From positions 2,935,226-2,999,225 of the forward strand of contig CM018605.1 of NCBI GenBank assembly GCA_009192285.1: 64,000 nucleotides of DNA, written 5' to 3'. The notes below the pieces were generated by a model that was not told the origin of the DNA, did not search any database, and saw only the letters and a list, made by a program, of their open reading frames with translations. Each line of letters starts with the position of its first letter. The stretch's first letter is position 1. Below are positions 5,099 through 64,000 of this stretch, piece after piece. Position numbers and translations under genes: made by a program. This stretch comes from Morchella semilibera (Eukaryota > Ascomycota > Pezizomycetes > Pezizales > Morchellaceae).

Positions 5099-5485
5099 CG
5101 ATGCAATTTTTGTGACCTTTAAGCTGCGCCGCACCATAATCGGTATATATCCAGTGCGAAAGATAACTTCACTTTTTGAGCCCAAAACATGCAGAATTAT
5201 CATTTATTTTCCCCGTACCCAGGATAGATTACCGTGTCACCATACAAATCGATGTATCCTAGGGTACAACTGCTGGTGACACTGGCCCGGCCCAGTCCTG
5301 ACTGGGTCTACATACCCCGCCAATCTAGGGTTAGGGGTAGTTTAGAAAATCCGACCTCGTCTAGTGTGCCATGATTATTATTACTTAGTCCTCATACTTT
5401 GACCACGAAATCTACTGTCCCAGTTCGCCTCAAGCTTCTCAAGCCACTCAGGGGTCAATAACACGCCCGGAATCAAGTGCCGAGC
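5099..5485. other. Upstream region of the HET gene
   Basis: There is no coding signal. A telomere-like TAGGGTTAGGGG lies at 5326-5337. I see no clear TATA box close to the HET start, so the promoter cannot be placed. Confidence 0.4.
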
Positions 5486-7321
5486 ATGAAAATATATCTC
5501 GTGAGAATCAGAGAGAGAACAGAAGGGGGCGCTCTCTATATCGAGCGGAAGCCCGACGCAACAACCGAGGATGATTATATCGCAATATCACACGTCTGGG
5601 GTGATCCTGCGACTATCCAAAAGACGGAGATTGATGGTGTTGGTACTGTCGAGCTCAGTCCCGGTAAAAAGGATATTCTGGCTATCCTCCGGGAGCCAGA
5701 CATCTGTGGAGAGAGCTGGTTCTGGATGGACTTATTCTGCATCGACCAGAGACCCAGTGCGACTATCAGCATCTCAGAACAGCTCATGGCAATCCCGCAC
5801 ATTTACAAATCAAGCACGGTAATGAAGATCCTCATTGAATCTCCCGTTTGTATTAATTGGCAAACAACTGCAGCCAGAGTGGCCGGCAACCCGGAAACAG
5901 ATAGGGAAGTCTTCTACGAGGAGGAGCTCCGTCACTCCCGGAAATGCCCCAACATGCTTCTTCTCGACCCCTGGTTCGACAGACTATGGACTCGACAGGA
6001 AGGCCTCTATGCGAGGGATATCAAAGTTATCCCACTCAACATAGTTCAATGTACCCGATTAACCACGAGAAGAGCTGATGGAGATAGATGGGTTACGGAG
6101 GGGGCCGTCCGTGTCAAGCGGGCACTTGTGCACGAGTTCATTACCGATAAACTGGCGTACCACGGTTTACCGCAGAGTCGGGCTAATGTTATCCTCCGGC
6201 TACATTTCGACCTACTCTACAAGCAACATGTGCGTATGCAGGAGTACTCCACTGTTCCTGGTCCTCATGAAAACTATTCCCCTTTTGGGGAAGTGTGGAG
6301 GAGCGGGCGCCAGACAGCGAAACCGCGGGACTATGTCCTTGCTGTTTTTCCGGACATTGCTGGCTACCAGGTGCCCCGAAACCCTAGGGCTTTGACTTTT
6401 AAGCAATTGCTTGTCGATGCCATCCAACAGTTTGCGGCCATACGACAGCGTATAGCATTCGTTTCGAAAGTGCCGCTAGGTATGATGGTAGCGTCTTGCT
6501 CGAATGACTGCGCAAAACCTTGGATACACGAGTCCCCGGTGGATACGACTGAGGCTTATGACTCATTGTATGGTATTATTCTGCCTCACGCTATTGAAGA
6601 TGGCAAGATTTGTAAGGTCCGTGTCATGGTCGACCCTGTGACCCAGAATGCGATGGAATCTATCGACTTCCGCAGGAATGCACTACCAGACCTTGTGAGC
6701 CTGTGGGAGTCGACAGCAGGTATCATCGAGCATGCATCATTCGGGGCTATCTCTGGGCCATGCTCTGGAGGGTCGGGGCGATTCCAGACAAAACTCGACC
6801 TTCTACAGCGATACTTTGCCCATGAATTTGCTAAGCTCGCAATCGCAAGATTCGCCGCGAATCCTGACCTGCGACAACACGGCATTGTCAAGTTGGAAAG
6901 TCTACAGGTCCCGGACAACGAATTCTCCCTCGAGCTCAAGCGCTTTCTGGCTTGTCTTGTGTGCTCTACAACAATGCGTACCGCAGATGCAGTCCTGGAG
7001 GTGGCCGATTTTAGATTTGTCCCATCGCCTTATGGAAAGCTGATTACTTTGGTCAATAAAGTCTTTTTGCGCGATGACACTCAAAGCTTCATGCTGGTTA
7101 GCACAGGAAATACTCAACTTCACGGTCTACAGGTCGCAGTCAAGGCTGAGAAGCGCGGGTTCTGTCATATCGTTGGGAAAACCATGATTCCGGCGGTCCG
7201 AGTCGACTCAAAACAACCATCGCCCAACACAAACTTTTTGATAGCAGAAGGTTACAAAGGTACGTCCGGAGATGGTATCAGGTTCGATGAAACCTCTTCT
7301 TTGTCCTTGGGACCCTACTAA
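5486..7321 (+). CDS. HET-domain (heterokaryon incompatibility) protein
   Basis: A single-exon gene of 611 residues. HET-domain proteins of filamentous ascomycetes take part in allorecognition and can trigger cell death when unlike hyphae fuse. Family hallmarks are visible: YIAISHVWGD at residues 31-40 (family form A-h-S-Y-x-W-G), FWMDLFCIDQ at about 80-90 (W-h-D-x-h-C-I-N-Q), an M-x-x-I-Y segment at about 103-110, and DPWFDRLWTRQE at about 161-172 (family form Y-F-x-R-x-W-x-x-Q-E). The long remainder has no recognised domain, as is common. I chose the ATG at 5486. The frame is also open a few codons upstream, through a GTG at 5477. No membrane segment or WD/NACHT module is visible. The neighbours are repeats only. 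Function in incompatibility is inferred from the domain, since most HET genes have no tested role. Confidence 0.88.
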   Translation: MKIYLVRIRERTEGGALYIERKPDATTEDDYIAISHVWGDPATIQKTEIDGVGTVELSPGKKDILAILREPDICGESWFWMDLFCIDQRPSATISISEQLMAIPHIYKSSTVMKILIESPVCINWQTTAARVAGNPETDREVFYEEELRHSRKCPNMLLLDPWFDRLWTRQEGLYARDIKVIPLNIVQCTRLTTRRADGDRWVTEGAVRVKRALVHEFITDKLAYHGLPQSRANVILRLHFDLLYKQHVRMQEYSTVPGPHENYSPFGEVWRSGRQTAKPRDYVLAVFPDIAGYQVPRNPRALTFKQLLVDAIQQFAAIRQRIAFVSKVPLGMMVASCSNDCAKPWIHESPVDTTEAYDSLYGIILPHAIEDGKICKVRVMVDPVTQNAMESIDFRRNALPDLVSLWESTAGIIEHASFGAISGPCSGGSGRFQTKLDLLQRYFAHEFAKLAIARFAANPDLRQHGIVKLESLQVPDNEFSLELKRFLACLVCSTTMRTADAVLEVADFRFVPSPYGKLITLVNKVFLRDDTQSFMLVSTGNTQLHGLQVAVKAEKRGFCHIVGKTMIPAVRVDSKQPSPNTNFLIAEGYKGTSGDGIRFDETSSLSLGPY

Positions 7322-14451: not shown

Positions 14452-17400
14452 CTACTCTTCAAGTAACCGTCGTCGCTTATGAGTCCGTCTGACTCCCGAT
14501 GCGAGGTCCTGGCTTCCTTGACTGCGAGTATGAGGGTGAGCCTTAGTGACAGGTTTGGCGTTCTCATCAGCCAAGGCTTCCTGTGGTTCCGGTGTTGCGA
14601 GTCGTTTACGGGTGTTCTGTTGCCTACTCGGATCCGAATCTTCACGATAAGGTCGAAGCAACATCTCGTGGAACACGTTGTGTATCTTCCATTCTACCGG
14701 AAGGTCCAAACGATACGCTCGATTGCCGATTTTGGCGACAACTTCGAATGGTCCTGTAAACTTATCTGACCACTTGTTGTAACCGCCGAGGTTCCTAGTG
14801 TCTAAAAGAACCTTCTGTCCTGGTATAAACTGTTGGACTGTTGGCCCGGGTCGTGACGCCATTTTATCGTACGTCTTCTGAAGAGTCTCCCGTGCCAGCT
14901 CATGGGCCGATAGGATTTCATCGAGATAGTTATTCCCGTTGTCATCCAGTCGTTCGATTTCTGCGTCCGTTGGCCAGTCTGTCCGAGGGTGAAACCCATA
15001 GTTGACATAGAAGGGTGACTGTCCGGTAGAGGAATGCTTCGCGTTGTTGTAGGCGTATTCACAGATAGGAAGGAGATCTCTCCACTTCTTACCCGTACCG
15101 GCCGTAAATGCGCGAAGGTAGGACTCCATATGCTGATTTGTCCTCTCGGTTTGGCCATCTGTTTGGGGGTGGAACGATGTTGAGAGTCTTCTACGAATCC
15201 CTAGTCGTTCCGTAACTGCCACCCAAAAGGCCGACACGAACTGAGTACCTCTGTCTGATACTATCGATCGAGGTAGTCCGTGGAAGCGCCATATGTCCTT
15301 GACAAAGGCCTGAGCGGTCTGTTCCGCATTGATACCCGTCATTGGGATGAAGTGGGCCATTTTACTAAAACGGTCTACGACAACCAACACGTTACGGTAT
15401 CCCGACTTCTCTTTTGGCATTTCTACTACGAAATCCATTGAGATGTCGTTCCAGGGCGTAGTCGCTAACTCTAGGGGTTGAGGCAACGATAGGTGACGCC
15501 GTCGCTGTTTTGCTCGCTGGCAAACATCGCAGGTCTGAACGTACTTAGCGACGTCCGTGGTCATTCCAGGCCACCAGTAATTCCTATCAATCAACTCAAG
15601 GGTTTTATCCCTCCCTAGATGCCCCGCTACCGGTCTGTCATGATGATCTTCAATGACTTGCTTGACCGCATGCCCAGGCACAACCCAACGTCCATCGTGG
15701 GTGGCCGTATTCTGATCGGGATCCCACTTTTCGTGCAGCGTGTCCTCTCCTGAGCTCGACGTCTGCCGGGTCCACCAGTCTTCCGGACACTCGCCATCAG
15801 ATTGCTCATCCGGAACAATTCTGCGTGTCCATTGACTTCCTTGCTCATACCAGTCCTGTAGCGCCGAAGGCAGACCTACACCCGGTATGTGTACCCACTG
15901 ACTCAATAATGTCCGTTCCGAATGGGGGTTACTGACGATTTCGCTACCGAATGCTACCTCGGTACTTGACTTTCTTGCGAACTGTTCGATTGTAAGCAAC
16001 TGTTTTACTGGTTGCTCACGAATTACTCCCCCTTCCAGGGCGTACTCCGGACGCCGTGTCAACGCATCGGGCTTGCCGTTCTTGTCGCCTGGTCGGTAGT
16101 GGATCTTGAAGCGAAAAGGTGCTATCTTTTCGGCCCAACGAGCCTGCCTTCTGGACAGCTTCTTGGTCGTTGTGAAGTACTGAAGGTTTTGGTGATCAGA
16201 ATATATCTGGATAGGTATGTCCGTACCTTCCAGCCAGTGTCTCCAAGTCAAGAGAGCAGAAACTATCGCGAGCATCTCTTTATCATAGATCTCGTAGTTG
16301 ACCTCTGCCTCGTTGAACTTGCGAGAGTGATATGCCACCGGATGCAACATACCATCATCGAACACCTGGGATAGGATCGCGCCTTCAGCCCAGTCGCTGG
16401 CATCAGTTTCAAGGACAGCCTGGCGATGTTCGTCATAGTGTCGGAGGATTGGAGCGGTGGTGAATCTCTTCTTGAGTTCGGTGAAAGCATCCTGCTGCTC
16501 CCGACCCCATTTCCAGACGGCGTTCTTCTTCAGGAGATCGGTCATAGGTCTACACACTTCTGAGTAGCCGTAGATGAACCGTCGGAGGAAGTTGGCGAAT
16601 CCCAAGAAACACTGAAGCTCCTTCACCTTGGTTGGCGCCAGCCACTCGGTGATAGCCTTCACCTTTTCTGGTGAGACCTGGGTTCCCGTACCTGATAGCT
16701 TGAATCCTAGGAATTCTACCTCCGTTTGGAACCAAGCCGTCTTTTTCAGGTTGCCGAATAAATGGTGTTGTCGTAGCCGCTCCAGCACCCTGCGCACCAG
16801 AGCAATATGCTCTTCTCTAGACTTGGAATATATCAGGATATCATCCAAGTATACCACTAGGCCTTGATCTAACAGATCCTTGAATATCGTGTTGACCATC
16901 GCTTGGAACGTTGCTGGCGCGTTCGTCAAGCCGAAGGGCATCACCTTGTATTCAAAATGGCCATATTTGGTTCGGAAAGCTGTCTTCCACTCCTCTCCTT
17001 CGGCGATCCTTACTAGGTTATAACCGTTCTTGAGATCTATCTTGGTGAAGAAGAGAGCTCCCTTCGTCGAGTCTGCCAACTCAGCCATGAGTGGCAGCGG
17101 GTATCGGTTCTTGACTGTGACGGCGTTTAGTCCGCGGTAGTCGACGCATAACCGTAATGACCCATCTGGTTTAGGGACGAAGAGGATTGGTGCCGCTGCT
17201 GGGCTCGAAGACGGGACAATTTTACCTGCCGCTAACATCTCGTCCAGGTATTCCCTCAGCGCTTTCTGTTCCGGGGGGCTCAACGGGTAGATCGGGCCCC
17301 ACGGAGGCTGGCTTCCGTCTATCAGAGGAATCGTATGATCCCACTGTCCATGTTCCGGCAGGCGGCCTGCTCCGTCTAAGGAGAACACGTCTGCGTAGTC

Positions 17401-17985
17401 TTGGAACTCTGCCGGGATAGCACTAGCGAGAGTTTCGCTTCCCGACCCGCGTGACCAGAAAGGGTGCGACTCGATGGATACTACTGGCTCAGGGTCTGGC
17501 ATATGTCGGAGAAGTCTGACCACTTTCTCTTGCCAACCCTCTTCGTACATATCCAAGTCTGTCATCATGCATCCCTTAATCTGACACTGGATACTATTGA
17601 AGGTGACTAGGTTCTGTCCCCAATGTATCGTAGGTTGATGCTCTGTGAGCCATCGATGTGGTATTACAAGGTCTTCTCCAGCAAAGGTACCGATTTCGCA
17701 GGTGACTAGCCTGTCGAGGTGGCTACCGATCCGGAGTGTGAGGGGTTGGGTGGTGTGAGTGCCGGAGTGAGGCATGCGTGTGCCGTCGGCTTGCTTAATG
17801 AGGAGGATTTTAGGTCGATTCTGGATTGGGATGTCGGCCTTCTTGACGCAGTCCCATGACATGATCCAGTCTTCGGTGCCACTGTCTAGGAGGGCTTTGA
17901 CAGTATGAGTGAAGTGCTTGTTGGTCTTTGGGTTAGCCCAAGAGATTTCTATCTCCAGGCGTGTTTCTTGAGTTGAGGTGGTCAT
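14452..17985 (-). CDS. pol: Pol polyprotein (protease-RT-RNase H-integrase)
   Basis: 1,177 residues, uninterrupted. The aspartic protease motif is LLDSGTEDW (about 31-39). The reverse transcriptase carries YPLPLM, KIDLKNGYN, MPFGLTNAP and the catalytic YLDD (about 375-378). RNase H shows ETDASDW (about 521), YEIYDKE and YSDHQNL. The integrase shows an H-H-C-C zinc region (H...GHLGRDKT ... CDVCQRAK, about 782-828) and a D,D-35-E core: SMDFVVEMP, IVSDRGTQF, QTDGQTERTNQHMESYL. The GPY/F-like module reads FTGPFEVV, followed by HNVFHEMLLRPY. The C-tail is basic (KRRRLLEE), could act as a nuclear-localisation signal, and holds no chromodomain. All catalytic residues I looked for are present, so the enzyme looks functional. 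It is in a different frame from gag and separated from it by 416 nt. Confidence 0.97.
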   Translation of the reverse strand: MTTSTQETRLEIEISWANPKTNKHFTHTVKALLDSGTEDWIMSWDCVKKADIPIQNRPKILLIKQADGTRMPHSGTHTTQPLTLRIGSHLDRLVTCEIGTFAGEDLVIPHRWLTEHQPTIHWGQNLVTFNSIQCQIKGCMMTDLDMYEEGWQEKVVRLLRHMPDPEPVVSIESHPFWSRGSGSETLASAIPAEFQDYADVFSLDGAGRLPEHGQWDHTIPLIDGSQPPWGPIYPLSPPEQKALREYLDEMLAAGKIVPSSSPAAAPILFVPKPDGSLRLCVDYRGLNAVTVKNRYPLPLMAELADSTKGALFFTKIDLKNGYNLVRIAEGEEWKTAFRTKYGHFEYKVMPFGLTNAPATFQAMVNTIFKDLLDQGLVVYLDDILIYSKSREEHIALVRRVLERLRQHHLFGNLKKTAWFQTEVEFLGFKLSGTGTQVSPEKVKAITEWLAPTKVKELQCFLGFANFLRRFIYGYSEVCRPMTDLLKKNAVWKWGREQQDAFTELKKRFTTAPILRHYDEHRQAVLETDASDWAEGAILSQVFDDGMLHPVAYHSRKFNEAEVNYEIYDKEMLAIVSALLTWRHWLEGTDIPIQIYSDHQNLQYFTTTKKLSRRQARWAEKIAPFRFKIHYRPGDKNGKPDALTRRPEYALEGGVIREQPVKQLLTIEQFARKSSTEVAFGSEIVSNPHSERTLLSQWVHIPGVGLPSALQDWYEQGSQWTRRIVPDEQSDGECPEDWWTRQTSSSGEDTLHEKWDPDQNTATHDGRWVVPGHAVKQVIEDHHDRPVAGHLGRDKTLELIDRNYWWPGMTTDVAKYVQTCDVCQRAKQRRRHLSLPQPLELATTPWNDISMDFVVEMPKEKSGYRNVLVVVDRFSKMAHFIPMTGINAEQTAQAFVKDIWRFHGLPRSIVSDRGTQFVSAFWVAVTERLGIRRRLSTSFHPQTDGQTERTNQHMESYLRAFTAGTGKKWRDLLPICEYAYNNAKHSSTGQSPFYVNYGFHPRTDWPTDAEIERLDDNGNNYLDEILSAHELARETLQKTYDKMASRPGPTVQQFIPGQKVLLDTRNLGGYNKWSDKFTGPFEVVAKIGNRAYRLDLPVEWKIHNVFHEMLLRPYREDSDPSRQQNTRKRLATPEPQEALADENAKPVTKAHPHTRSQGSQDLASGVRRTHKRRRLLEE

Positions 17986-23651: not shown

Positions 23652-25687
23652 ATGGCATCCTCTATTAAGTCATACAAAGCACCCAATCCGCCTTCTAGGT
23701 CCCAACTTAAAAAGCAGCTGTATCTCGAGCGCCGCGCAGCAAAGACACAGAAAGACAAAGAGGTACGAGCAGCTGGGTAATTTCATCTCCCTCTCTTTAA
23801 GCGGAATAGTACCATATCTGATAAATCAATAGGAGTAAAAGTTGTCGATGGGAGCCTTATGGCTGCAGAGAACTCATCTCTATCCCCCAGAAGGGCCAAC
23901 ATAACCACAATAACTGCCCCTTTAAATGCGTCGAGGAGGTTCATGAACTTTGGAAGCTACTCCGGAATTACCAAGAGCGTTACCCAGATTTTAAACCTGA
24001 CTTGTGGGGCGTTTTCGCTCCAAAAGCCTACATGTATAGGCCAATTCAGTACTACGATAAGCTAACAGCTATATCGAACAAGGACCAGCCGTTCCTCTTC
24101 GATATTAAGGATATCTGGCAGAAAACAGTTCCGACAGATGGGACTGTATATCTCGCGTGCATGAAAGCGGTCCCTTCTCAGCATTATGACCCCTTGACAA
24201 TTTTCAATCAGATCCACTACCCGAGGGATCACCGACCTGCTGACGTCCAATTTATCCTCGATGTCAAGCCCAAAGGCTTAGAGCAGTACCCTCTTTCAGT
24301 ACCGGTATGTCTGGAGACATTACATCGGGTTGGATATGTAGGATATAATATGACCCCTATTCATTCTTTTGTCGATCTACATGTCGGTAAGCTTCAGACC
24401 TTTCAATGTGTTTCTCAGGATTCCTGCTTGAACTCAGGCCTTTCAATTATGCTGATTCATACAATAGACAGAGGACAGGATACCGTATGTACAATGGTCG
24501 GCAAAACAGAGAAACTCTGGATCATGTGGCCTCCAACAAAGCAAAACGAGGAGGCTTATTATCGGCATGCATTTCCAGCAGAAGTTGAAATGAGGCCTCT
24601 CCTGGCCGCATCCACGGGAAGGCAAGCCAACATCGGAAGACAGCTCAACACCGCACACAAGGTTATTACAATTGCCCAAAATCTTACTGAAGGACGTATT
24701 GTCAAGACAACCAAGCATAATGCAATATATATCCCTGCAGGCTGGATTCATATGGTCCTCACACTTACCGGTGGCATCTTGGTAGGTTATACTTGGTCGG
24801 CACCGGAGAGAATAGGTATCCTCTTGGGTTGTCTAGAAAAAGAAATCACCTCAGGTAATACTGTTGAGGATTTGGCTCAGACAGTCAAACTAGCGGCAGA
24901 AGTACTTGAATTTGGCCTCCTCAAAGGAGACAGACAGACGATAACCTCCGCTCTCAAGCACTGGATCAACTTTATCCGAATTCTGGAAATAAACCTAGGA
25001 AAATGGAGCAGAGAGACCTTGGAGAGAGTTAAACAGACCATGAAAAATCTTTCAAAGCGGCAGAACCTCCCTGTAGAATGTCCTTGCATCACTCTCACCA
25101 CGACACACCAAGAAAAAAGGCCTAGATACGATATGGGAACCCATGTTTTAATACACGTGGTGTCGAGCGAGAGACCCGGCATTTCCACGGGCTATAGGGA
25201 ACTTGAACCAGTTATCCCTACTGCCACAGAAGGCGATTTCTCTGATATCGAGCAATCGACTAGTCCTTTACTTCCCCCAGAACCTCCGATCAAAAGGCCC
25301 ACAGTCACTAGAGTATATGCTTCCAAGGCTAAGACTCTCGCTTTGAAGAGCGCCGCCACCACCGCTGCTAAGGCCGCTACCAAGACCGCTGCTAAGACGG
25401 CAGTTAAGACGGCAGTTAAGACTACCACAGCTAAGCCCAGCAATAAGGCTACCAATAAGGTTAGAGGCGCCGGAGGTACCAGGCCTGCTACTAGGGCAGC
25501 TACCAGGCCGGCTACCAGGGCCGCTACCAGGGCCGCTACCGCTACTAGGACCGCTACCAGGGCTTACCCAAACAAGAGGAATTCTAGAGGCATTCGGTCC
25601 TCATCAGTTCTTTATGACTCTCAAAGTGATGACGAGGAGGAAGGGGAGGAGGAGGAGGAGGACGAGGAGGACGAAGAATATATATAA
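23652..25687 (+). CDS. JmjC-domain protein with histone-H1-like basic tail and acidic end
   Basis: A spliced gene: exon 1 23652-23776, exon 2 23833-24386, exon 3 24468-25687, about 632 residues. JmjC proteins are Fe(II)/2-oxoglutarate dioxygenases, often lysine demethylases. After splicing the core reads FVDLHVDRGQDTV (H-x-D, at about residue 225). It continues with GKTEKLWIMWPPT and YIPAGWIHMVLTLTGG, which carries the second iron ligand His (about 325) in the usual lPaGhiHaV setting. The N-terminus is basic and helical (LKKQLYLERRAAKTQK). The C-terminal 150 residues are Ala/Lys/Thr repeats (AAKTAVKTAVKT) passing to Ala/Thr/Arg repeats (TRPATRAATR) and an Asp/Glu run, like a linker-histone tail. 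The 3' splice site of intron 1 is ambiguous (23832 or 23868, both in frame). The gene converges on the helicase gene. Substrate is unknown. Confidence 0.75.
23777..23832 (+). other. JmjC gene intron 1 (predicted)
   Basis: Begins GTAATT, ends CAATAG, 56 nt, with a CTGAT branch-like word 10 nt before the end. Removal joins two open frames. The alternative acceptor TGCAG at 23868 also keeps the frame. Confidence 0.5.
24387..24467 (+). other. JmjC gene intron 2: in-frame, stop-free, 81 nt
   Basis: Begins GTAAGC and ends ACAATAG, with GCTGAT as branch word. The length is a multiple of three and there is no stop, so a naive open-frame call reads through it. Splicing joins CATGTCG to ACAGAGG and creates H-V-D, the JmjC iron ligand pair. 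Retention gives H-V-G and 27 extra residues. Confidence 0.8.
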
Positions 25688-26625: not shown

Positions 26626-29600
26626 CTAAAGCTCGATTGCGACTTCAAGGACCCTTATAAGATTAGTCGCCTTCTGACCATGGATCCAAGTCAGTTTGCC
26701 GATCCAATCCCTGTATTCATCAACATTCAAAGAATCCACCCCCATAAACTTTTTGATCTTGCTCCTCAACCGCTTAATGAACTGAGCCAAATAAACCACA
26801 AGCATAATAGTATGCGGCCCATATTTGCAGGTCGATTTATCACCCTTCTTCTTACCAATCCTGCAAAGATGTTGTGGTAGGAGACATCTGAAACAGCATG
26901 AATGGTCATCACATCTCACAATATTCCTCCAATCCCAGTAGGACTGATAGTCACTACTTATACCCCCATAGCTCAACGTGCTATAAACTCCAGAACATCC
27001 CTTGCTCAAGTGATCAAGCTGGGATCCCACCCTAGAACCCATCCAACAATAGCCACAAGCCCCCGAAAGCATTGGGAGAGCTTCTCCTATCTTTGCCCAG
27101 TAAGTAGTAGCCAGTGTTGTTCTCTCTAATTGCATCTCCTGTACCAGGTTCGCTGTTTTACTCTGGGTAGCCGTTGATAGATCTGTGCCCTCCGATCGGA
27201 GTTTTTTGGTTGAATGCTCCCCCGCCTTGAATGAATCGGCGTGTATCATAGGCCTTTTTCCGTTGACATTTCTTCCTGTAGGTAGGTCTTCCTCATCTTC
27301 ACTTTCACTAGAGCTCCCGTTGTCTGACCCTTCATCAGTAGTAATCAAATCCATGATTATTCTATTGGCTTGTCTTGGTGGTGAAGGGGACCTCTTTCTC
27401 GGAACTTTCTCCGCATGATTATTATTAACGGAGGGCTCCACAATTGGGTTCACTATCGGCGCAGCTCTCTTGTGTTGGAGCGGGGCTGTCGCTGGTTTCG
27501 CCCTATCACTCCCCAATTTACCTCTCCGTGGTTGTGCTCGGCTAGGATATTGTCTCTCCTTGAGGAAGGGGCTTGGCGGAGACTCATCGACCCCCTCATC
27601 ATCGATCCTGACTACACAATTATCGCAGAGCTCATCCGAACCTAACACACATCGCAGACCGGAACCATCAAAATATTCACCTAATTGTACTCTGCGGCAG
27701 CCCTGTGTTTTGCAGTAAGCCGCCATAGCATCCCTGTCACTCTGCATGCCATCATTCTTCTTGATGTCAATCTGTTCTGGAACGACAATAATGATTGACC
27801 GAGCTGGTTTCCCATCTCTTCCGGCACGACCACTACCTTGTGAAAACTCAACGAACCCATGTGGAACTTTGAAGTGTACTACCAGTCTGATATTAGGTAT
27901 GTCAATACCTGTTCCAGGTGCAGTCGTGGCCACTAGTATTTTGCTTTTTCCACTTGTGAAATCAGCGAGGGCAGTATCCTTCCCTACCATCTTCGCATGA
28001 TATACTGCACATCTAAATCTTTCGGCAATTCGCTCACCTTCCTGGTAGGTCCTAGTATAAACCAAGGCTTGGTCGTTTTCCGAGTCTCTGGAGAACGCAT
28101 TTATTGTCTCCTCGAGCTGCTGCTCCAGAAAGTCCTTCTTTGCTTTGATGACGGTGTAGGCTATATTTGGCCTGAGAGCTCTAGCCCGAATAATGGTGCT
28201 GTTCTGCACAAAGGCAGCCTTCAGCAGCTCGGGCTCCATCCAGCCGGGAAGTGTAGCAGTCAAGAATGCACACTGCACCCCGACAGCCGAGAACCAGTCG
28301 AGCTTTGCAAAGGCCTCCCGGAAACCGGCTATCGTGACGAGCATGTGTGCTTCGTCTACGACCACCCTATCTAAGCGGCCAACTTCCTTAATCCTCTTAA
28401 TATATTGCTTGAACCTGGGCGATACTGCAGTCTCTACAGTAACGACGAGTAGAGGACTATCTTGAGTCAGGTTCTTACTAGGTGTCCACAACTGGCAATC
28501 TATTTTCATATCACGGGCTCTTCTTACCAAGTCTTGAGAAAGAGCAATAAATGGTGATATTACCACAGTAACACCTGCATCAGGCTCGAGCGACGGCCCC
28601 TGGAAAAGAAGACTCTTACCGCCACCTGTCGGGAGCACGACTATAAGGGGTGTAACCAGTTCCAGGATTCCAGAGAGGGCTTTCCTCTGCTCTACCGACT
28701 TGAAGGTTGCCCCTTTTCCATACAATTCCGCCAGTATCCTGTTGCATCGGACTTCAGTCTCCGCCGGATTAAGTGACTCGCGTGGATGGCGATCTCTGTT
28801 GTTGGAGGGTGCGGGAGGGACCACTGTCTCTATGTTTGGTATAGGTATAATCTTCTGCTCCTTCGGATAAACTAGTTTATGCCAATCTTTGCTAATTAAA
28901 CCAAAGATATTCATCGCGCTCTCTGTAAGCTCATTGAGGGTGGAGGAATTAACAGCATAAATCCTATTTGCGACTGCAGTAGTATGGCCTGCTTGCAAGT
29001 CAATCCCTTCATCCTCGGTATCAGTATCATCCTCTTGAAATGTCTTTTTAAGGAATCTTCTGCTCATGGAAATTGCTAGGTGGCGATACGAATCAACTCC
29101 GAACTGACTATCGACACCAAAGGCAGCACAAGTAGCCTTCTTTAAAACCTCTGTCAGTCTGCCACTCTCCCATGGTTCTTGGCCGTCATCGGAGAACAGG
29201 AAGTTTCTCGCTGAGTATGATTTTTTCACTTCGTCACCCTTCTTTAAAGTGTCTACTTTCTTCAAGTATTCCATTAGAGGCTTTACCCTTTCTATATACA
29301 GGATATATATCGCTGCTATATCAGAAGGTAAGAATCGTGGGATGAACTTTGAATGACCAGACTTGGTGAGACCCTTGTGCCAACTGGTCACCCACATGAG
29401 CATGCCGTCAACAACAAAGACGTTCCTATTGCCAAGGACACTGTTCCGGAACCTAGCCTTAATTATTTCTGAAGCTCTTGCAGGCTGCCCTCCTACGAGG
29501 TGGAACAGCAACAGGAGTGTTTCTAGTAGGGCCTCCTCGTCGTGGATAAATTGCTGGATGCCGTTTTCCATGTAGATGAGTTCACCATTGACGGAGTGCA

Positions 29601-32433
29601 TGAGTTTGTTTCTCAAGGTATCATTATCGAATACCGAATCCAGGCACACTCCATTTCTTGTAGGGGAAAACATCTTTCTGTTTCGTCTATCGCCTAAAAA
29701 GCAGTACTCTCGGTTGAGACAGGAGATATCATCACGGACTCCTGAGACCCACGCCTCTAGGTCTCCCTCTGGCTTGGCTACCCCGAACGCCATATTAAGT
29801 AACATCCATGCATATTTAACGTGGTCTTGAATCATTTGCCTGAATTTAGTCATGCTGAGGTCTGATCCTTTGAAGCAGACAGTGTCCGATTCCAGGCCTT
29901 CTTTCAAGCTCCAGAACAGATCGGGTTGACTATATTCTAGCTTGCCAACCTGTAGTGCCCAGGCAAGGAGGTTACTCACTTCTGGAATTGCAGTCAAGCC
30001 AGTTGGCGTGAGATATTTATGGTGGAGCTTTATGAACCCTGGGAGTATCTCGTCGTCGACTCCTTTTGCCATTTCCCAAGCCCTTCGGAGAAATAATATT
30101 CTTCCATCATACTGGAGCCCTGCGAGATCTGTGGAAATGTGCTTTGCGGTTCTAAATATGTTCTCGACAGGATCGATACCCAATACACTAATCCCATGCA
30201 TGAATGGTGCTTTCATTAGGGCAGTTTCGGTAAAGGTCTGTGTCAGGAGGCTTATGCTAAACCCAAATACCAGTTTCTCTAGCCCCTCATGATCGATATG
30301 GAACTCAAACTCATCATCGCTTGCATCACCTGCGCTCGGTTGTTCTATCTCTCTCTCGATCTTGAAGAGCCATTCCTTTTGCTCGTTGGTGAATGTTATG
30401 AGCTTATCGTATGGAGATTTGCGAATGTAATCTCCCAACCAGAGGTGTACCAGATAAAGAACAACCTTCTTGAAAGCATCCGTATATCTCTTTTCGGTGT
30501 TCCCAAACCTTCTATCCCATGGCTTGACTGCGTACTCGACCGTACTAAAACTAGACATCCAGCGCCTAGTAGGTACCCCTGCCTTCCAGTCATAAATGTT
30601 CCTGCAGATTATGAACATATCGTTGAGAGCACAGGATACGGCAGAGAGTCCCTGATAGAGAGCCCCTCTCGGTACTTCCATTAGCTTGCGAACAACGCTG
30701 ATGTCGCAATCTCTAAAATGAACGAGCCATCCAGTTCTAGAAAGCCAGGGGGATACCTGATCCCTAGGCACCTCTCCGACCAGACCACCTTTGGACCTCA
30801 TGCAGAACTCGAGAAACTTTTTCTTTTCTTTTCTTCTCATTTCCTCGGTGATTGACCCCCTGTCAATTCTCATAGTACTATCGAGAACCACACTAAACCA
30901 CCTTCTCCCAAGTCCCAGAAAGAAGGACTGTACTTGGGCAGGAGAGTATCCCCCGGGCGTATGCCTAGGTGAACCCTGCAAATCGCCTTCCCTATCCCTT
31001 ATATGGCGCTGCATAACCTCTTTATTCCTCGATGCATATGGGCAAGCAAGGCATTTATAACCCTCATGTATTGCTAACGACTCAAAGGGGGCCCTTTCAG
31101 GAGTCTGCAAACTCACCTCATGTACTGGAAGGGGCTGTAAGTTGGCAAGGAATCGATGCACATCTACCCGATTTTTGTTGTACTTGTGGTGCGTAATTAA
31201 ATGTGACAAAATATGTCTCGGATCGAGCCCAGTCTTGCATTGGAAACATATCACCACTTTGTACTCTTGATTGTACTCGAGCCCCAGCCTGGCTCCCAGT
31301 CTCCGACCCTCAAGTTCACTCAGAGGTTCATCATCTTTTCCCATTGGCGGTATCGTCGATTCTTGACCGTCCTTGTCCGAGCTCAAAACAGCCTTCAATT
31401 TCCAGCTCGTTGAAGCATATAGTCTAGCCTCTTCAAAGGCCAAATCCACATCCATGCCTGTGAGAAACTCTCTTTCACTTCTCACACTTTCTTGCCGCGC
31501 CATAACCACCCCTGAGTCATGAGGGAAAAAATCATCCTCCTCGATGACGGCTGGGTTGATATGTTCGATCTCGGTGCGTGCAGCCTCTGCTATGAAAGCA
31601 TTAGATAGGTTCAACTACAAAGCATCAGGGCCTTACGATCAAAATAATGCCTAACATCACTCTGCATACACAAATCCCCTAAATCGACATCTGTAATATG
31701 CTCCCCGAGTAGATCACTCATACTCTCCCTTGGCTCCATGTTAATATCGGCAACACTAGAAGCCAACTGTGGCTGTGTACTAGTACCCCCAGCTATATCC
31801 CCACTGCTACTTGGACGGGCGGCAGCCATTGGAGACACAAGAAATGGTACTTCACTGTTTTGGGTGGCTGTTCCGGGGATCTGATTCTCACTACCTATTG
31901 CAAGCTGCGGATCAACCGGAACCATAGGTCCTGTGGGCTCAATGGTATTTGACTCGGTATCGAGGTCACTTCCGTCACCAGTAATCTGTTCCACAGTCTT
32001 AGGTTCTACCCTTACCCCCTCTGTTCTTGGTCTTCTCTTCTTCGCATTAGTTACATGGTTCTCCCCAACACGGAGAGTTGGCTGAGCCCCCACGTTTACC
32101 AACAGAGGATTTTTTGAGCCTCGTGCATGTGCTAGGGTCGTAGCATCATGGTTTGTCTCTCTCTGAGCAACATGTCTGCGCATATACTCCGGCTTGGCAC
32201 TGGAGTAGCCACACTGGCATCGGAATAATCCAGTCACCGCATCCCGGATAAAATTCACTAAATCACCATCCCAACTACGAGCCTCTACACTTCCTTGATG
32301 TACCTCCTAAACAACGGATTAGACCCATTTCTGTAAGCTACTATTTAAACCAACATACCCTCTTGTGGCTCAAGAGCTTTGAACTATTGTCAAACCTTAG
32401 TTGGCATTGGCCACATTCATGATAAGCTGGCAT
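26626..32433 (-). CDS. Telomere-linked RecQ-type helicase with zinc fingers and a tyrosine-recombinase-like region
   Basis: Three-exon model: 32433-32359, 32306-31637, 31589-26626, about 1,902 residues. The first exon starts ATG CCA. Classical C2H2 finger: C7-x2-C10-x12-H23-x4-H28, completed across intron 1. Further finger-like segments: CQCGYSSAKPEYMRRH (about 54-70), CFQCKTGLDPRHILSHLITH (about 361-380, OrsD/DUF3505-like) and CLACPYASRNKEVMQRH (about 430-446). Residues about 900-1130 resemble a tyrosine recombinase: PARASEI, KGLTKSGHSKFIPRFLP, DSYRHLAIS, QAGHTTAVANRIYAV. The RecQ helicase follows: PTGGGKS (about 1237), VVDEAHM (about 1326), QGSGRAGRDGKP (about 1502), and a zinc module C...GEYFDGSGLRC..CDNC (about 1545-1572). 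A Cys-rich block (GACGYCW ... CCFRCLLPQHLC) lies near the C-terminus. The type and position fit fungal telomere-linked helicases. The recombinase role is inferred. Confidence 0.85.
31590..31636 (-). other. Helicase gene intron 2 (predicted)
   Basis: In the sense direction it begins GTAAGG and ends TTTCATAG, 47 nt, with branch word CTAAT 15 nt before the acceptor. It removes both the TGA that closes the upstream frame and the TAG just before the long frame. A CAG acceptor 3 nt further on would also keep the frame. Confidence 0.75.
32307..32358 (-). other. Helicase gene intron 1 (predicted)
   Basis: In the sense direction it begins GTATGT, has branch word TCTAAT and ends TTGTTTAG, 52 nt. Joining the exons completes a C2H2 finger, C-x2-C-x12-H-x4-H, whose last His lies in exon 2. 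The domain therefore supports the splice independently. Confidence 0.8.
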
Positions 32434-61600: not shown

Positions 61601-63862
61601 CGACGGACCACACAGAGCCGGGCACCTTAAACCTTCTCGATGGAAAAAAGGCCCGTTCCTATCTATACCAGGTCTCTCTGTGTCCTGTGGGTGCTGCGGT
61701 TGCCCGGGAAGGTGTAGATTTAATCTAATTTGGAGAGTATATCAACCAGTGGGTCCTCGTATATGGGGCGGGGAAGTGTTAGCGCCTATCACCTGTTTAA
61801 GAATGATCTGAAGCTACAGTTCCATAGCCGTGAAGAGTATGTCCTAGATCACGACTACGGATGTATAAGAGCATTTTATCTAATGTAATTCGGTTAGCTC
61901 CGTCTTGGCATCAGGCGCCGGGGAACTGACGGTGGTTCAACGTGGAGGTCTTGCAGCATTCTAGAAGCGGTCTAGAACCGGTCAAGACCAGGATCGCAGA
62001 TTCCTGCTTGGGCCAAATAGCACTATGAGCTTGCGATAATCCCTGACAGCCTTCCGGGATAGAAATGCGTCATCTACCTGTCTAAAAGTCATCACCATAG
62101 TTAGCACACCAGATCTGTCATTATCCGGGATGGGCGCGCTCCAACTGTTCCGAGAGATCTCTGTCATCAAGTATCATGTAGCCGATAGCTCCCGATTCTC
62201 CTGTTTGAGCTTGGATTAGCCCTGTTGGGCTTTGGATTCTCTGGGATTATGCATGTAGGAGGATGTAACCGAAGGAGGGGAATGGGGTGGAGAAACAATG
62301 ATAGCCATGTGTCAATAACACGGTATCTCATTAGTTGAGGCCACATTGGATTTGTGAAGACGCAAAAGTCAAATATGTAAGACTTGCATGTAGCCGGTTT
62401 ACAGGACTTGGCTGGATGTATCTAAATGATTAAACAGAGGGGTCAACCTGTAATTCCGCGCGCTCTTGCATTATTTTATTGTGCGCTGGCCTTAACATCT
62501 AGCTAGCCGTTAACATGTATCTGGCCGTCCTTTTAGCACACGTATCATCCACTATCGGTCGGCCAAAATTCGATGCCAAGGGCATATGTTTGTAACACGT
62601 AGTCCCGGAAACGTACACCATAGTCGGTATTTGGCCGCCCGCCAAGGTGCACTAGCGTTCTGGCATCATTTCGGCTCTAGAGAGGACAGTGTAGCGAAAC
62701 CACGTTTCCTTTCCGGGCAGAGCTATAAGAAAAGCTCGCTTCGCCCTCTGTTTCCTCTTCATCCTCGTTTTATCCATTTGCATCTCCAAGTGCTCCCAGA
62801 AACTTTGAGTGTCCGGTCTTTACTGCTGTGAAGTGCAAATTCTCTATAATGACTGTCGTGTTTTTAGAAAGTAGCCCGTTAACTGGAACATTTCTACTCA
62901 GTATAATGACTAGGTGTTGAGTATGTGAAACCCGTGACTTTATTTCTTGTGGTGCTTGGGGGGTCTACTTTGGTAAGAACGAGTCTTTTCCAGTGTGATT
63001 TTTAAGTATGTGTAATAATGGTTTTCTTAGGTTTCCCGCCCATTATTTCCAATGCCGTTGAGTGTGTTGCCACATTGCAAGATTCCCGATGGCGTTTTAA
63101 GATTCAAGCCATTGTGAACCTCTGTTAGGTCAAGCCGTTCCGTTTAGCGGAATCTCGAGACGGCGTAGCTGCTCTAGTATGGTTTTCCGTGTGTTTTAAA
63201 CACAGCTTCTCTTGAGTGGCGGCCCGTTCTTGAGTGGCGGCCCGTGCTGGTTTTCGCCCGTGATGTTTCCCGGCATCTGGATATAACCCGAGTTGCTACT
63301 TCATGGGGCTAGTTTCTAGTTTTCCATGCACGTGCAGGTGTACTTTGTGTTGAACCGTCTGGTTTTAGTTTTTGATGTCGACAACTTTGCTGTTTGTGCT
63401 GAAGTGCCGCTTTGCGGGCAGAAGTTGCGAGATTTAAAGTCTTGAGCGCCCATCGCTGTTATCACGACTTTTGTTGGTGGGCTGTTTTTGGTAAACCACG
63501 TTTATCGCAGTTCTGAGCCGTTCACGCTAGTTTGGGCAGAACCCGCGCCAGGGGTCTTTGGGACTTTTCTTTGAGTGTGAGTGTCCCGCTGCGTTTCTGG
63601 CAGCTAGTCACGTGAGTAGAATCGTTTACGGTTGGTGCTTGAGGACCCGGGTCACGTGACTTTGAGTTTTTTCGTGTGTAAGTGTTTACCGGCACTTTTT
63701 TCTTTTCGCTGTGCGGGAGCCCGGGGTTGTGCTGTTTTGGTAGGTGTTAACCGCTAGGGTTAACCGACGGCCGGGTAACTCCCGTTTTTTAACCGCCCGC
63801 TAACTTTTTTAACAGTTTTGCAACCCGCCGGCAACCGCAGTCCGGGTAACAGGCCAGGGTCA
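61601..63862. other. Telomere-adjacent region
   Basis: No gene is supported. The last kilobase is T/G-biased on the + strand and contains a degenerate CTAGGGTTAACC at about 63753 and several GTAACAGG / TTAACCG words. An 18-bp tandem pair lies at 63211-63246. It abuts the telomere array directly. Confidence 0.5.
63211..63246. repeat. Two tandem copies of an 18-bp unit
   Basis: CTTGAGTGGCGGCCCGTT is followed at once by CTTGAGTGGCGGCCCGTG, one mismatch. Confidence 0.85.
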
Positions 63863-63870
63863 GTTAGGGG

Positions 63871-64000
63871 TTAGTTAGGGTTAGTTAGGGTTAGTTAGGG
63901 TTAGTTAGGGTTAGTTAGGGTTAGTTAGGGTTAGTTAGGGTTAGTTAGGGTTAGTTAGGGTTAGATAGGGTTAGTTAGGGTTAGTTAGGGTTAGTTAGGG
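63871..64000 (+). repeat. Telomere: 13 copies of TTAGTTAGGG
   Basis: A perfect 10-bp unit TTAGTTAGGG is repeated 13 times to the end of the window, with one variant (TTAGATAGGG at 63961-63970). An imperfect CAGTTAGGGG precedes it. G-rich strand 5' to 3' towards the end is the right polarity for a right-hand chromosome end. The unit equals TTAGGG plus an extra TTAG. Most filamentous fungi have plain TTAGGG. Confidence 0.95.

Follow-up and report, generated by a model that had tools for sequence, protein, structure and literature searches.

A helicase gene near one chromosome end of Morchella semilibera (GCA_009192285.1; 56.8 Mb in 23 contigs) appears to belong to a subtelomeric family of the telomere-linked helicase (TLH) type in which the unannotated middle of the protein is a tyrosine-recombinase catalytic domain, probably an active one. 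This is the reading that we favor from the sequence, and we regard it as a credible new domain assignment, of moderate confidence, in an already known gene family. A preliminary description of the same DNA had proposed that a recombinase-like domain is fused to a RecQ helicase, and that proposal is supported both by alignment, in which the catalytic columns are conserved, and by register in profile comparisons. The window analyzed here makes up the final 64 kb of contig C3, and its HET-domain gene and OrsD would fit a filamentous ascomycete.

The gene lies on the minus strand, from an ATG at 32433 to a stop at 26626 (the same limits as in the preliminary description), and is modeled as three exons that encode 1902 aa with no internal stop (spliced CDS, 5.7 kb). 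Exon 1 (32359..32433) contributes the ATG and a first C2H2-like finger (CGQCQLRF...), exon 2 (31637..32306) a second finger (CQCGYSS...MRRH) and a linker, and exon 3 (26626..31589) is the main coding exon; the two GT..AG introns, of 52 nt (32307-32358) and 47 nt (31590-31636), can be removed while keeping a single frame, the first by an in-frame join and the second by restoring the frame. Exon 3 sits inside an uninterrupted minus-strand ORF of 1662 aa (26626-31614) that holds all four of the recombinase-like motifs in one frame.

In order along the protein come zinc fingers and OrsD, some 450 aa without annotation, a core that resembles tyrosine recombinases, and a RecQ core, which is intact, all encoded on the minus strand. 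The OrsD domain with its zinc fingers (ORF aa 112-208; 30991..31281) matches Pfam PF12013 at an E value of 4.2e-17. Between it and the recombinase-like core lies a conserved region with no assigned fold (29644..30990), which has many invariant columns in the paralogue alignment, has no Pfam match past the OrsD boundary, and could contain a recombinase core-binding domain. Assignment of the catalytic core itself (ORF aa 658-917; 28864..29643) draws on profile comparison, a profile search of the PDB, and conservation; Pfam returned nothing above cut-off between the OrsD and DEAD matches of the window ORF. The helicase portion (ORF aa 976-1333; 27616..28689) is identified as RecQ by the Pfam models DEAD, Helicase_C, and RecQ_Zn_bind (a helicase core plus the RecQ zinc-binding domain), and its best solved relative is RECQ5 (E value of 2.5e-29 in a PDB search). 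The C-terminal Cys/His-rich region (CGYCW...CCFRCLLPQHLC; ORF aa 1502-1662; 26629..27111) has no Pfam match and was matched separately at the copies on C1, C6, C4, and C16.

All four motifs that the preliminary description had placed between the zinc fingers and the RecQ core do occur in one minus-strand frame upstream of the RecQ Walker A motif PTGGGKS, which is at aa 1235 of the spliced model. Located in the translation and numbered by that model, PARASEI starts at aa 951 (window position 29484), HKGLTKSG at aa 986 (29379), DSYRHLAIS at aa 1081 (29094), and the box III motif, QAGHTTAVANRIYAV, at aa 1114 (28995); the residue labels that follow refer instead to the 1662-aa ORF. The motifs supply the box I pair R713xxE716 (29467..29478), the beta-hairpin lysine K747 (29374..29376), the box II pair R844-H845 (29080..29085), which lacks the usual His at R-3, the box III residue H877 (28984..28986), and the predicted nucleophile Y886 (28957..28959), with R713, K747, R844, H877, and Y886 falling on XerD R148, K172, R247, H270, and Y279, respectively. 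A five-copy alignment (the window copy plus the paralogues on C6, C1, C4, and C2) has 106 invariant columns, which include R713, E716, K747, R844, H845, H877, and Y886, and the sixth copy, on C16, which is in two pieces and was compared separately, agrees with this alignment at the catalytic residues. The tyrosine-recombinase series R, K, R, H/W, Y is thus found in order and invariant in all five rows, and each of the six copies has the Arg and Glu of box I, the Lys, the box II R-H, the box III His, and the Tyr, with nine residues from the box III His to the Tyr. The preliminary description had staked its proposal on homologues keeping their R, R-H, and Y columns, and among the paralogues of this genome these columns are conserved in six of six copies. 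Recombinases of the XerD/Cre type have the same elements in the same order, with the same H-to-Y distance; the present core differs from them in having no box II His, in an identity that falls in the twilight zone, and in being fused to a RecQ helicase.

The Asp that had been noted in place of the box II His is confirmed: at R-3 the window copy has D, and the five paralogues have L, A, A, S, and I. Because it is not His in any paralogue, the absence of the H-x-x-R histidine, common to all six copies, is a trait of the family. According to the sections of PMC4381057 on which we draw, this position is less conserved and varies in true tyrosine recombinases, several Cre His-289 variants stay active, Flp H305L still cleaves, with accumulation of the cleaved intermediate, and a conserved Asp/Glu supports the active site. 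Given that the missing member of the pentad is the less conserved His, without which several Cre variants are active and Flp can cleave, the core is probably capable of cleavage; joining is less certain. The position of RxxE is, we assume, the site of the supporting Asp/Glu in tyrosine recombinases, a role that E716 would fit.

Kinship to the recombinases was assessed by aligning the 260-aa core alignment, with hhalign, to a profile of 47 tyrosine recombinases (XerD/Cre/lambda Int). One run scored 26.8 over 166 columns, against 14.9 when reversed and at most 23.6 in 60 shuffles. A second run, likewise unguided, scored 26.5 over 158 columns and set R, K, R, H, and Y in the XerD register at five of five positions; among 400 column shuffles, none of the catalytic columns aligned in 329, one in 66, and two in 5, never more than two of the five, while the score itself was exceeded once (29.8). 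The motif order and nine-residue H-to-Y spacing claimed in the preliminary description stand. The hhalign probabilities (1.6-8.2%) and E values (0.004-0.032) are in the twilight zone. When the full-length alignment was compared with the recombinase profile, the best stretch was aa 709-887 (score of 26.0, E value of 0.032), and a second stretch, aa 255-292, was nearly equal (25.3, 0.039). Seven other segments of the same protein, used as decoys, had scores between 10.6 and 25.0, the top one being that of aa 60-319, over only 34 columns, compared to 26.5 for the core; since such decoys reach 25.0, the score is weak evidence by itself, and it is register, length, and conservation that carry the argument. 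The RxxE/K/R/H-9-Y constellation arose in 17 of 200,000 shufflings of residue labels over 105 of the 106 invariant columns (F1254 was left out), a count that is indicative only, as the spacing ranges were set post hoc.

Searching the PDB (177,635 sequences) with the core profile by hmmsearch placed 3nkh, named Integrase and presumably of the tyrosine type, first (E value of 0.026), with R-H aligned on R-H; the second of the two matches up to an E value of 10 was a chromodomain protein (0.42). A longer profile (aa 348-917) ranked carboxypeptidase T first (0.055) and the integrase tenth (0.079). The preliminary description had also called for HMM searches with phage-integrase and DUF3435 profiles. 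Scans of the core against Pfam, PHROGs, and NCBIfam returned no match to a recombinase family, and a genome search with PF00589 returned no match. One of five members matched phrog_9079 (no description) weakly, at an E value of 0.029, and one paralogue matched an NCBIfam glycosyltransferase model at 9e-4, but with 18 bits against a cut-off of 457. A plain tyrosine recombinase HMM run against 541 ORFs from the window and the five paralogue loci ranked the C2 paralogue best (E value of 0.2) and the window ORF (12) below several unrelated ORFs. Relatives sought in viral and genomic contig collections (non-fungal by description) gave 31 and 24 pattern matches, none of them related. The core, unannotated in Pfam, PHROG, and NCBIfam, may have a label in InterPro or SUPERFAMILY.

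Starship captains (DUF3435) and Cryptons are, like the enzyme proposed here, fungal tyrosine recombinases, and the preliminary description had named both. Kinship to either is not supported: DUF3435 (PF11917) had no match in the five core-domain sequences scanned and a single, broken, weak match in the genome search (on C23), and a Pfam scan of two ORFs gave no match to GCR1_C, the DNA-binding domain that accompanies the recombinase in CryptonF.

At least 33 matches to the window protein were found in its own genome, including the five further copies on C6, C1, C4, C2, and C16; such counts are lower bounds because only the best candidates were scored. The five paralogues are diverged (identity to the window protein by alignment of 42% for C6, 48% for C1, 33% for C4, and 32% for C2, and 31-40% for the C16 copy, in pieces) and keep the domain order of the window gene. 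On C1 (1452 aa) and C4 (1990 aa), OrsD through RecQ is in one frame; the C6 frame is interrupted once, by a stop that lies after the core, ahead of RecQ, and inside a possible 57-nt intron, and the C2 and C16 copies are spread over several frames, which may reflect introns or decay. Smaller fragments of the family occur on C23 and C19, an OrsD fragment occurs on C20, and there are a few elsewhere, while the remaining matches look like ordinary helicases. Of seven OrsD matches found genome-wide, six fall in the six helicase copies.

A telomere-linked, subtelomeric position had been claimed for the gene, and it holds for the family, which consists of multiple RecQ genes (six copies found) at chromosome ends. 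The contig that carries the window terminates in telomere repeats, (TTAGTTAGGG)n, which occupy 63856..64000 on the plus strand, 31 kb from the gene; their unit is 10 nt, TTAGTTAGGG, not TTAGGG. Five of the six copies lie 14-47 kb from such an array. The distance to the repeats at the contig end is 31 kb on C3, 40 kb on C6, 47 kb on C4, and 14-15 kb on C2; on C1 the copy is internal in the assembly, at 23 kb from an array that breaks off at a single N (C1:5770140), with non-telomeric sequence beyond it, as if contigs had been joined in the assembly at what was once a chromosome end. The sixth copy, on C16, is 27 kb from a bare contig end, with no TTAGTTAGGG repeat in the last 10 kb. The genome has 363 occurrences of two tandem TTAGTTAGGG units, 168 of them forward and 195 reverse, which lie both at contig ends and within several interstitial arrays, so proximity to an array is not unique to the helicase family. 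Among the listed matches to the telomere string in published papers, none appears related to fungal telomeres.

The TLH genes of Ustilago (UTASa/UTASb), Schizosaccharomyces (tlh), and Magnaporthe and Fusarium likewise encode RecQ-type helicases at chromosome ends. The present family differs from the published accounts in its recombinase-like core: their consulted portions name no recombinase domain (PMC7473861, PMC12857005, PMC7840980, PMC10532341), and the word “recombinase” does not occur in the main text of these four papers; in the sections cited, subtelomeric RecQ/TLH genes are also described without a recombinase in PMC4522978, PMC12857005, and PMC7840980. For Agaricus bisporus, the cited part of PMC7473861 reports no domain beyond the helicase core of the subtelomeric helicases, ten genes with identical proteins (as opposed to the diverged copies, 14-47 kb from the end, seen here), and, in the authors' view, no obvious telomere abnormality in a variety without subtelomeric RecQ genes. 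The tlh ORFs of Fusarium oxysporum are about 3.5 kb (PMC12857005, in the part cited), compared to a CDS of 5.7 kb here. In Ustilago maydis, UTASb, consisting of a core sequence, OrsD, or both, is found near telomere repeats or upstream of the RecQ-bearing UTASa, and some subtelomeric RecQ genes are upregulated in telomerase-RNA mutants (PMC10532341, relevant sections). A fusion of tyrosine recombinase to RecQ is not mentioned in the cited part of a screen for fungal host-transposon fusions (PMC10799480) nor reported in the titles or the opening lines of abstracts among the matches listed from open-licence PubMed Central. For background on tyrosine recombinases, we drew on portions of PMC3212892, PMC6681497, PMC3537659, and PMC12134995.

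Other explanations overlap with the favored one, and their probabilities need not sum to one. The protein could be a mobile-element transposase, Crypton-like or akin to the telomere-targeting TATE elements, rather than a host-maintained gene, a reading that shares its chemistry with ours and that we hold to be unlikely. TATE elements, as described in the relevant part of PMC6681497, are tyrosine recombinase elements tied to telomeres and inserted in telomeric hexamers, and the present family is also multi-copy, subtelomeric, and accompanied by fragments; TATEs, though, are retroelements inside the telomere repeats, while the present copies sit 14-47 kb inward, outside the repeats, and the protein, a helicase, contains no reverse transcriptase detectable with Pfam. 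Among the matches scored, moreover, nothing but the window protein itself exceeds 57% identity to it over a long match, and nothing in the genome exceeds 39% identity to the C2 core. The recent mobility implied by the preliminary description was not upheld either, in that no convincing bounding repeats were found around the gene when repeats of ≥18 nt were sought; the short imperfect repeats present, some of which span the gene (e.g., an 18-nt repeat at 83% and an inverted pair of 20 nt at 75%), often arise by chance. A recombinase fold kept for DNA binding only, without catalysis, has a precedent in the domesticated, Crypton-derived DUF3504 proteins and would suit the lack of the box II His in all six copies, yet the DUF3504 proteins have lost the Tyr and the second Arg (PMC3212892, in the part cited), whereas here the window copy and four paralogues, at 32-48% identity to it, share R, K, R, H, and Y without exception, and the sixth copy has them too; we think it rather improbable that the core merely binds DNA.

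A reading of the core as a type IB topoisomerase, which would serve RecQ as a swivel in the manner of RecQ-Top3 or reverse gyrase, draws on the analogy between strand cleavage by tyrosine recombinases and by these topoisomerases (PMC4381057, in part). PF01028 has no match in the five core-domain sequences scanned, the PDB search with the core returned an integrase and a chromodomain protein but no type IB enzyme, and PF01028 topoisomerase matches occur separately in the genome, on C3 (the exons recovered for its own TOP1 are fragmentary). Pairs of a helicase and a swivel do exist, which counts in favor of a topoisomerase, but a His that immediately follows the box II Arg is a tyrosine-recombinase-like feature, and we judge this identity very unlikely. 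It seems to us similarly far-fetched that the resemblance is due to chance and the middle of the protein has an unrelated fold: the twilight-zone scores and the silence of Pfam would agree with it, but the shuffling and constellation tests, the rank of the integrase in the core PDB search, and conservation in six of six copies all speak against it.

If the core is indeed an active tyrosine recombinase, the anatomy and location of the gene suggest its coupling to RecQ and its action at chromosome ends. The zinc-finger/OrsD part, together with the 450-aa region, would bind a subtelomeric or telomeric DNA site, where the RecQ motor, whose motifs are present, would open or migrate the DNA. By the chemistry of the superfamily, Y886 would then nick one strand to form a 3'-phosphotyrosyl link, and the core would rejoin the nicked strand to a partner strand. 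The outcome might be strand exchange, or a nick and swivel, between chromosome ends, such that the enzyme would spread its own subtelomere or assist recombination-based maintenance of the ends. One enzyme might thus both unwind and recombine chromosome ends, and a strand-cutting and -rejoining domain would, if real, recast helicases without an assigned role as a recombinase that can be tested, with Y886 as its predicted nucleophile. The region between OrsD and RecQ would then merit a look in every fungal genome. More tentatively, and with doubts that outweigh our confidence, fungal subtelomeric RecQ helicases in general might be, or descend from, recombinase/helicase fusions that cut, unwind, and rejoin chromosome ends. 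A gene family known only for its helicases would in that case conceal a eukaryotic recombinase dedicated to chromosome ends, perhaps a selfish one, that binds DNA through OrsD.

The neighborhood of the gene has further features. A gene that is JmjC-like by eye (24002-25687, plus strand) and has no Pfam match is convergent to the window helicase, within about 1 kb; its counterpart at C2:12504-14053 is also convergent within about 1 kb, and another, at C20:3983919-3985761, adjoins the OrsD fragment there. This family has many other matches in the genome, several near contig ends. Convergent to the C4 helicase copy is a weak Tet_JBP-like dioxygenase match (L011:8397-8963, minus strand), below cut-off at an E value of 0.021. 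The window also contains a retrotransposon pol (14452-17985, minus strand), probably of the Ty3/Gypsy type, whose reverse transcriptase, RNase H, and integrase core domains share a single open frame, and a HET-domain (heterokaryon incompatibility) gene (5477-7321, plus strand; E value of 8e-14).
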